Shown piece after piece: positions 6,396-25,211 of a stretch of 57,817 bases of DNA (position 1 is the first letter of the stretch; each line of letters begins with the position of its first letter). Below the pieces are notes generated by a model, which saw only the letters and a program-made list of their open reading frames with translations, ran no database searches and was not told where the DNA came from. The position numbers and the translations under genes are program-made. Source of the stretch: Acidimicrobiia bacterium (GTDB lineage: Bacteria > Actinomycetota > Acidimicrobiia > Acidimicrobiales > Bin134); contig VYCQ01000038.1 of the NCBI GenBank assembly GCA_009843865.1, forward strand, positions 1-57,817. The letters run 5' to 3'.

Positions 6396-7079
6396 ATGCA
6401 GGTAGATATACGTCATGCCCCTAGTTTTGCTGTGGCCCGTTGTGGCCTAGGTGGGGGAGAGAAGGTCAAGGTAGAAGCTGGAGCGATGTCGGCCCACTCT
6501 TCAGGAATGTCCCTAGAGGCAAAGGTGGAAGGCGGCATGCTCAAGGGCCTTAAGCGCAGCGTGCTTGGTGGAGAGTCGCTGTTCGTATCCACCTACACGG
6601 CCCCCACAGAAGGTGGTTGGGTGGATGTGGCCGCCAAGCTGCCCGGTGATCTACATGTCATTGACCTAGACGGTTCGCTTTCCTGGGTTATTGAGCGAGG
6701 CAACTGGCTTGCCTCAGACGACGCGGTAAACATAAACACCAAGTGGAGCGGGTTCAAGTCGCTGGTAGGTGGCGAAGGCGGCTTCATGGCTCATGCTTCG
6801 GGTGTGGGCAAGGTAATTGTGTCCTCCTACGGTGCCATTGACGTGATCAAGCTCGCCCCGTCAGAGACGGTAGTAGTAGACACCAGCCACATGCTGGCAT
6901 TTCCCGACACGGTAACTTACAACCTGCGTCGTGCAGTACAAGGCCGTTCTATTCAGTCTATGAAGTCAGGCGAGGGTTTCGTGTTTGAGTTCACCGGCCC
7001 CGGCGACATTTTGACGCAAACCAGAAATCAACAGCAGCTCATCGCCTGGATCAATACTGAGATTGGCAGCAGAGAGTAG
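6396..7079 (+). CDS. AIM24/TIGR00266-family protein
   Basis: A 227-residue single-domain beta-rich protein of the AIM24 (TIGR00266) family. The family hallmark is the opening VDIRHAPSFAVARC and the run of Gly-rich beta strands (EGGMLKGLKRSVLGGESLF; GPGDILTQTRN at the end). Bacterial members are conserved, cytosolic and of unknown biochemical function. I start at the second ATG (6396) because the family begins right before the VDIRHAPSF segment and GGTAAG lies upstream; an ATG at 6390 is also possible. It is divergent from the glycosyltransferase gene and convergent with ferrochelatase, so it is probably a single-gene unit. Confidence 0.8.
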   Translation: MQVDIRHAPSFAVARCGLGGGEKVKVEAGAMSAHSSGMSLEAKVEGGMLKGLKRSVLGGESLFVSTYTAPTEGGWVDVAAKLPGDLHVIDLDGSLSWVIERGNWLASDDAVNINTKWSGFKSLVGGEGGFMAHASGVGKVIVSSYGAIDVIKLAPSETVVVDTSHMLAFPDTVTYNLRRAVQGRSIQSMKSGEGFVFEFTGPGDILTQTRNQQQLIAWINTEIGSRE

Positions 7080-7126
7080 CTGCTATCTGGCTATTGTATT
7101 CAAGTTACCGAACGTCGCCAGGCTTA

Positions 7127-23422: not shown

Positions 23423-23752
23423 ATGGGAAATGCAATGAGATTAGTGCAGAACAATACAACTGCTGAGAAGAAGTTGAAGGAGCCCAAGGGCTGGCAAACC
23501 ATGGCAAACTGCTTAGGGGTTGACCCCGATTTGTTCTTCCCAGAACGCGGAGCCTCAACGCGCGAGGCCAAAGAGGTGTGCCGGGCCTGTGTAGTACGTG
23601 AGGATTGTCTGGAGTATGCCATCATCAACGGCGAGAAGTTCGGTATCTGGGGTGGCATGAGCGAGCGAGAACGGCGGCGAGTACGCAAGGCCCGAGGTCT
23701 CACGCGAGTGCGAACCCCGCTGACCGCGGTTTCAGATGGCTCAGGAGCTTGA
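23423..23752 (+). CDS. WhiB-family transcriptional regulator
   Basis: A 109-residue WhiB-like protein, an actinobacterial Fe-S transcription factor that binds the primary sigma factor. Four cluster cysteines are present (C30, C53, C56, C62; VCRACVVREDC), followed by the GIWGG turn (74-78) and a basic C-terminal tail (ERERRRVRKARG). It starts at ATG 23423, with GGAG 7 nt upstream. The subclass (WhiB1/WhiB2-like by size) cannot be fixed by eye. It is divergent from the SAF gene; the methyltransferase cassette follows. Confidence 0.92.
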   Translation: MGNAMRLVQNNTTAEKKLKEPKGWQTMANCLGVDPDLFFPERGASTREAKEVCRACVVREDCLEYAIINGEKFGIWGGMSERERRRVRKARGLTRVRTPLTAVSDGSGA

Positions 23753-23835
23753 GCTAACGAAACATCAACGGCGAAAGATACCAGCCCACCAAAACTGGGC
23801 CCCCAGAAACTTATCCACCAACAGTTTTTGAGGAA

Positions 23836-23851
23836 TTATATATGAAGGTTG
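23836..23851 (+). repeat. Left 16-bp inverted repeat flanking the methyltransferase
   Basis: TTATATATGAAGGTTG; its exact reverse complement lies at 24911-24926, on the other side of the methyltransferase and its coupled small ORF. No target-site duplication is evident outside the repeats. Confidence 0.7.
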
Positions 23852-23918
23852 TAGGCAGCGTTTGTGACGTATTTAGTCATCCATGTCGCAGTAATATCCC
23901 ACTAAGAAAGGCGTTCTT

Positions 23919-24713
23919 GTGACTTGGAAGCCTAATGATATAGCAGTGGCAGAATGTGCTGCCTATATGCAAAACGAGATGCCCCCCGAGTGTGTTGACT
24001 TGGTAGTAACAAGCCCACCATACGATGATTTACGTGATTACACCGGCTACAGCTTTAATGCCAAGGCCGTAGCCGCAGGAATTTTGCGGGTTTTGAAGAA
24101 CGGTGGTGTGGCTGTCTGGGTAGCTGGTGACCGTATTAACGGCGGGCGAACACTCACCAGCTTCGAATACGCCATCATGTTCCGCGATCTCGGGTTCCGC
24201 GTCCACGACGTAATGATCTATCAAAAGAAGAACACGCCGTTTATGCGATCCAATACCTATACCAACGCCTACGAATTGATGTTAGTTCTAAGCAAAGGAG
24301 CACCCAAAACGTTCAATCCACTCACCTGTGCGACCAAGCGCAACGGCAAAGAAACGGCAGTTTACGGCAAAAGACCAGATGGTGACAACAGTAAACGGCG
24401 CGAGGTGATGCTCCGCAAGAGAAAGACGCGTACCAACATCTGGGAGTACGCGGTGGGGTTGGGAGGTACCACCAACGATCGATACGCCTTTACACACAAA
24501 GCCATGTTTCCCGAGAAGCTTGCCGCTGACCATATTCTTTCTTGGTCTAATCAAGGCGATTTAGTACTAGATCCTATGTGTGGAGCGGGAACTACACTAA
24601 AAATGGCCGCGTTTAACAAGCGGCAATGGTTTGGCATCGACATCTCAACCGCGTACGTAGAAATTGCCCGCTGCCGCGTAAATGAAGCCGAAGTTGCACT
24701 GTTCGTAGCCTGA
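23919..24713 (+). CDS. Site-specific DNA methyltransferase (beta-class, N4C or N6A)
   Basis: A 264-residue amino-methyltransferase with beta-class motif order. The catalytic TSPPY (31-35) comes first, and the SAM-binding DPMCGAGTT (218-226) followed by FGIDIS comes near the C-terminus. TSPPY suits N4-cytosine or N6-adenine methylation; by eye I cannot choose. The target-recognition region between the motifs is rich in Lys/Arg (KRREVMLRKRKTRTNIWEY). The start is GTG. No restriction gene is adjacent, so it is an orphan methyltransferase. The gene and the following ORF sit between perfect inverted repeats, suggesting acquisition as a unit. Confidence 0.85.
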   Translation: MTWKPNDIAVAECAAYMQNEMPPECVDLVVTSPPYDDLRDYTGYSFNAKAVAAGILRVLKNGGVAVWVAGDRINGGRTLTSFEYAIMFRDLGFRVHDVMIYQKKNTPFMRSNTYTNAYELMLVLSKGAPKTFNPLTCATKRNGKETAVYGKRPDGDNSKRREVMLRKRKTRTNIWEYAVGLGGTTNDRYAFTHKAMFPEKLAADHILSWSNQGDLVLDPMCGAGTTLKMAAFNKRQWFGIDISTAYVEIARCRVNEAEVALFVA

Positions 24714-24892
24714 CAAAATGGGTTGTCATTAAAGACACGCGGCAGCTTGCTGTAGTGGAACACCGATCCCCCAAAGGGGTGCGGGTAAAGTTTCCAAAAT
24801 CTGGTGATACCGGTGTTTACGCAATCGAGCGAGTAGAGATATTTGATCCCGCTGAGTACCCCAATCAAAACTTACAGCAATGGGAACGATAG
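24710..24892 (+). CDS. Small ORF coupled to the methyltransferase (CTG start)
   Basis: A 60-codon open frame whose only start near its 5' end is CTG, overlapping the methyltransferase stop (CTGA). The product reads LTKWVVIKDTRQLAVVEH at the start and has alternating basic and hydrophobic residues (GVRVKFPKSG, GVYAIERVEIFDP), which suggests a small beta barrel. The reading frame ends shortly before the right inverted repeat. No family is recognised. The CTGA overlap resembles the TTGA couplings seen elsewhere in the window. It could be a methyltransferase accessory protein or a decayed gene end; the non-standard start keeps confidence low. Confidence 0.4.
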   Translation: MTKWVVIKDTRQLAVVEHRSPKGVRVKFPKSGDTGVYAIERVEIFDPAEYPNQNLQQWER

Positions 24893-24910
24893 ATTGAGCT
24901 GGTGCGTCCG

Positions 24911-24926
24911 CAACCTTCATATATAA
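24911..24926 (-). repeat. Right 16-bp inverted repeat flanking the methyltransferase
   Basis: CAACCTTCATATATAA, the perfect reverse complement of 23836-23851; the repeats are about 1.06 kb apart and enclose two genes. Confidence 0.7.
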
Positions 24927-24980
24927 CTTCGTTGTTTGTATGGTGGCACGAAACATCTCGCAAGTGGGCGCGATTCAAGA

Positions 24981-24986
24981 TAGTCT
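24981..24986 (+). promoter_or_regulatory. Putative -10 box of leaderless tatA
   Basis: TAGTCT, 6 nt before the ATG at 24993. The identical box with the identical spacing precedes the MFS gene start at 34929. Confidence 0.4.
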
Positions 24987-24992
24987 TTGCCC

Positions 24993-25211
24993 ATGAGTAC
25001 CGGTGGATCAGAACTAATCATTATTCTCATCATCGTGTTGGTGTTGTTTGGCGGGGCCAAGCTTCCAAAGCTGGCACGGTCATTGGGCCAAGCTCAAAAA
25101 GAGTTCAAACAGGGCGTAGCAGATGGCGCAGCCTCTGCTCCTGACTCAGCTTCTCAGCCCAATAGCGAAAACAAAAGCGATGAACCGCCAGCAACAGGAG
25201 CAGAAAATTGA
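24993..25211 (+). CDS. tatA: Sec-independent translocase subunit TatA
   Basis: A 72-residue TatA/E-type protein. It has a single N-terminal membrane helix (SELIIILIIVLVLFGGAKLP), the FG hinge, an amphipathic helix (KLARSLGQAQKEFKQG) and a short acidic tail. It forms the pore-like complex that exports folded proteins. I choose ATG 24993 rather than an in-frame TTG at 24987 because of the -10 box placement. tatC is not in the window. The TGA overlaps the TTG start of the next gene (TTGA). Confidence 0.9.
   Translation: MSTGGSELIIILIIVLVLFGGAKLPKLARSLGQAQKEFKQGVADGAASAPDSASQPNSENKSDEPPATGAEN

Follow-up and report, generated by a model that had tools for sequence, protein, structure and literature searches.

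The window, a 57,817-nt stretch of DNA from an Acidimicrobiia bacterium, carries a DNA methyltransferase (MTase) gene and a short downstream frame between the host genes whiB and tatA. A perfect 16-bp inverted repeat encloses them, with its left arm (TTATATATGAAGGTTG) at 23836–23851 on the plus strand, its exact reverse complement at 24911–24926, and 1059 nt between the arms. The repeat lies exactly where an earlier, sequence-only reading of this DNA had placed it, and the two genes described there, the MTase and a 60-codon ORF, were both found inside, together with a doubtful 26-codon leader frame. The features of the locus are listed here by position in the window:

23423–23752, plus strand: whiB-family gene, the left host flank (PF02467, E = 4.9e-25), found beside tatA in 18 congeners
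23836–23851, plus strand: left arm of the 16-bp inverted repeat, with an RBS/ATG-like stretch inside; single genome copy in that orientation
23842–23922, plus strand: leader ORF of 26 codons, a doubtful gene, whose stop overlaps the GTG start of the MTase (GTGA)
23919–24713, plus strand: intact beta-class DNA MTase of the Hpy99I-type restriction–modification (R-M) family, predicted m4C (PF01555, E = 1.6e-35; GTG start)
24710–24892, plus strand: N-terminal remnant of the restriction endonuclease (REase) cognate to this MTase, an Hpy99I-like HNH enzyme; ATG lost, now CTG
24911–24926, minus strand: right arm of the repeat, located at the truncation scar; native sequence matching congener G004 begins at 24937
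24937–24992, plus strand: native tatA upstream/promoter region (local alignment to the G004 intergenic region, p ∼0.002 by shuffling)
24993–25211, plus strand: tatA, the right host flank (PF02416 and TIGR01411), syntenic in congeners

The enclosed unit is a lineage-specific insertion. The gap between whiB and tatA measures 43–151 bp in all 18 congeners examined, compared with ∼1.24 kb here, and none of the 18 has an MTase between the two genes. Relatives thus do not conserve the interval, which the sequence-only reading had proposed comparing among them. Moreover, no MTase ortholog was found in 21 congeners (best matches 27–45% over parts), and a close MTase is present in 4 of 397 genomes of the order, the host included. 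Relative to the nearest congener, G004, right-hand homology begins at 24937, ten bases beyond the right arm, and includes the promoter-like TAGTCT of tatA; the 83 bp after whiB gave no significant match in that genome. The right edge of the insertion maps to 24926–24937, and the left edge lies somewhere in 23753–23836.

In the MTase, motif IV (TSPPY) precedes motif I (DPMCGAGTT), and PADLOC calls the gene oMTase/MTase_II. A TSPPY motif IV fits m4C methylation. The MTase of the sister locus L033, in another member of the Acidimicrobiia, is 80% identical to that of the window, with a dN of 0.149, a pS of 0.79, and a saturated dS between the two. Because this divergence is strongly biased toward synonymous change, we conclude that purifying selection acts on this MTase lineage. 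As a complete gene with no functional cognate REase in the genome, the MTase qualifies as solitary, and the orphan status proposed earlier is borne out: a profile search of the host assembly (98% complete, 43 contigs) found only the stump described below. M.Hpy99I is a beta-class m4C enzyme acting on CGWCG (PMC3936762). By homology, the solitary enzyme of the window is likewise predicted to place N4-methylcytosine in CGWCG or a similar sequence, and this motif can be tested. Its role may be self-protection against a like nuclease or invading R-M elements, or it may set an epigenetic mark. The window shows no shortage of CGWCG (observed/expected 1.09), a ratio that neither supports nor refutes past restriction.

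Relatives of the MTase at 55–80% identity are spread across Bacteria in many phyla and occur also in one archaeal assembly and in viral contigs, with more distant ones in phages and plasmids. In 37 of the 73 loci that contig ends leave uninterrupted, the MTase has an intact REase of ∼200 aa beside it; in 7 more, the neighboring REase is partial or split. All five of the ∼200-aa neighbors examined carry PF18275 and PF02945, and PADLOC calls the neighboring nuclease REase_II. The profile of this REase family matched Hpy99I (PDB 3fc3) with E = 3.8e-73, over nearly its whole length, and matched T4 endonuclease VII weakly. By homology, the pairs of MTase and ∼200-aa protein are Hpy99I-like type II R-M systems; the Hpy99I system of Helicobacter pylori (REase 3fc3/3gox) likewise combines its REase with a beta-class MTase having an SPPY motif IV.

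The 60-codon frame at 24710–24892 lacks ATG, GTG, or TTG at its beginning, and its only possible start is a CTG, within a CTGA that overlaps the MTase stop. The sequence-only reading had taken this ORF for a coupled partner of the MTase. Homology instead identifies it as a truncated Hpy99I-like REase. By tblastn, it is 37–41% identical to the REase N termini at four related loci (L034, L037, L038, and L050), and its BLASTP match to REase has E = 9e-12. The alignment covers the N-terminal ∼52 residues of REases that stand at the equivalent position, directly after the MTase. A first profile, built on full-length REases, did not detect the small ORF; a profile of the N-terminal subfamily, built on those four REases, matched it with E = 4.5e-12, whereas the best E value among 2000 shuffles was 0.55. 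At the place where L037 and L038 have the REase start ATGA, the window has CTGA. The stump amounts to ∼55 N-terminal residues, both zinc/HNH parts being gone, and as a piece of an Hpy99I-like protein it differs from Hpy99I in lacking the zinc/HNH two-thirds and the ATG. The locus has no intact REase of the His-Me/HNH (Endonuclease VII-like) type bearing CxxC zinc motifs and the catalytic H/N residues, and the profile search found no other REase pieces, including the C-terminal part, elsewhere in the genome. Matches of the REase C terminus to the minus strand at 24760–24900 (tblastn) were dismissed as chance, being antisense, weak, and obtained with composition statistics off.

An open frame overlapping the MTase stop might also encode a functional accessory protein of the orphan MTase, such as a regulator or specificity factor. 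However, the frame is homologous to an REase N terminus, starts with CTG, and is missing from the sister locus L033, and we find this account hardly credible. The truncated nuclease is presumably without function; as a counterpoint, it is still one open frame, and a residual-domain function or a CTG start is possible.

Relatives of the window’s MTase record other stages of nuclease loss. The MTase tree pairs the window with L033 as its sister (100/96) and adds L034 next (100/99); the three are nested in a clade (97/95) that also holds L037, L038, and L050. Given this position inside an REase-bearing clade, their ancestor plausibly possessed both complete genes. L033 retains the ATGA and the residues MKDWV, its nuclease being cut to five codons; it sits at another genomic site, and its nuclease was lost with a different break point than in the window. 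At L034, the nuclease is in pieces. A second instance of decay, on a separate branch of the phylogeny, is found in genome G144 of the same order: its locus L064 combines an intact MTase with no more than the C-terminal half of an Hpy99I-like nuclease (6826–7116). The nuclease is intact in genome G071.

Based on the empty congener sites, the intact MTase, the REase-bearing relatives, and the N-terminal stump, the locus is very probably a laterally acquired Hpy99I-like type II R-M pair between whiB and tatA that has decayed, leaving an orphan MTase. Such a pair would have entered the whiB–tatA gap by lateral transfer in this Acidimicrobiia lineage, and the nuclease would have lost its start codon and catalytic half, either before or after that insertion, while the MTase stayed intact. 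The right arm of the repeat lies between the last nuclease-like codon (∼24871) and the first native base (24937), which is the position of the nuclease truncation scar. More tentatively, the arm may itself be the scar, marking where the nuclease gene lost its 3′ part and was joined to the tatA upstream region. Such a scar could have formed if the left arm served as template for an inverted copy at the break; alternatively, the match could be coincidence.

The inverted pair is unusual for its place, yet about one would be expected per two genomes of such size. In 500 shuffles of the 1,240-bp whiB–tatA interval, no inverted pair longer than 14 nt appeared. Dinucleotide shuffling of the window, repeated 60 times, gave one perfect inverted match of 16 nt or longer within 1.2 kb (mean 0.017), a rate that corresponds to ∼0.5 such pairs by chance per 1.79-Mb genome. 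The earlier judgment that the match is far from chance therefore holds locally but is too strong overall, because of this genome-wide expectation and because the feature was picked from a whole-genome scan by a reader that went through whole windows. Related MTase loci contain inverted pairs of 12–14 nt, which is chance level. These figures make it a real possibility, although one short of probable, that the repeat is pure coincidence within a decayed R-M insertion. Against it stand the failure of any shuffle of the interval to reach 16 nt and the fall of the right arm just at the truncation junction.

Mobile insertion cassettes and MITE-like elements have short perfect inverted repeats and cargo and no transposase. 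The window resembles them in its repeats and in cargo without a transposase, whose absence from the enclosed segment had been noted correctly by the sequence-only reading, and a minimal mobile cassette had been suggested on this account. In such a scenario, an insertion sequence would have mobilized the segment in trans, with the 16-bp repeats as terminal inverted repeats and the MTase and REase remnant as cargo. The segment is indeed a lineage-specific insertion, the right arm ends no more than 10 bp from the start of native homology, and excision at the arms would leave 149 bp, compared with 150 bp in G004. However, the left flank lacks significant G004 homology, so the agreement between 149 and 150 bp may be coincidence. 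Moreover, the host genome contains neither a further copy of the 16-mer nor an insertion sequence with these ends at up to two mismatches; the 16-mer is confined to this single locus rather than scattered. The 21 congeners searched yielded two unrelated sites with two mismatches only, the viral contigs searched gave single unpaired matches and no pairs, and none of the ∼74 related MTase loci searched had comparable flanking repeats. No flanking direct repeat of at least 6 nt was found outside the arms, in agreement with the earlier statement that no target duplication is evident, but a short one could be masked by the 6-nt palindrome TATATA that both arms contain. The window thus differs from known cassettes in having no related insertion sequence, other copies, or clear target duplication, and we consider such an origin unlikely; of the cassette proposal, the insertion stands and the reading of the repeats as mobile ends is unsupported. 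The repeat is locus-specific and probably represents a scar or a coincidence, not mobile-element termini, and we lean weakly toward a templated inverted copy or coincidence as explaining it more simply.

The arms had also been proposed to act as paired operators or hairpins. The right arm of the mRNA could pair with the left to damp translation, or both could bind a regulator, and the left arm does cover TTATATATG and the ATG of the leader ORF, whose stop overlaps the MTase start. A promoter scan at the arms found nothing above chance, however; the arms are conserved at no relative, and tblastn with the leader peptide at related loci gave chance-level matches only. We consider this proposal very improbable. 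In the same scan, terminator-like matches were slightly above those in shuffles, all on the minus strand.

The decayed R-M pair is, overall, an ordinary and well-resolved instance of restriction-system decay of an already known kind. Like other solitary MTases left by REase loss, it combines an intact MTase and purifying selection with no working REase, and it differs from them in the still-visible nuclease stump. The origin of an orphan MTase from an R-M pair is clearly displayed, with the nuclease remnant, its missing start codon, and the unoccupied site in congeners all visible. According to published pan-genome analysis, decay in place is a rare source of solitary MTases (PMC4176335); the small set of decayed loci in the window, L033, and L034 and, independently, in G144 is useful evidence on that question.

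MTases of the family also occur alone in other settings. The viral contigs L108 and L109 (116 and 367 kb) and L110–L112 carry family MTases of 61% identity with no nuclease nearby, which are possibly carriers or anti-restriction genes. In a Chloroflexota lineage, the family MTase is present in many genomes, mostly without any nuclease and with constant neighbors (gene clusters c2, c3, and c4), at loci L065, L068–L070, L074, L078, L084, L085, L088, L090, L092, L095, and L102; there it appears to be an orphan retained for a long time through vertical inheritance.
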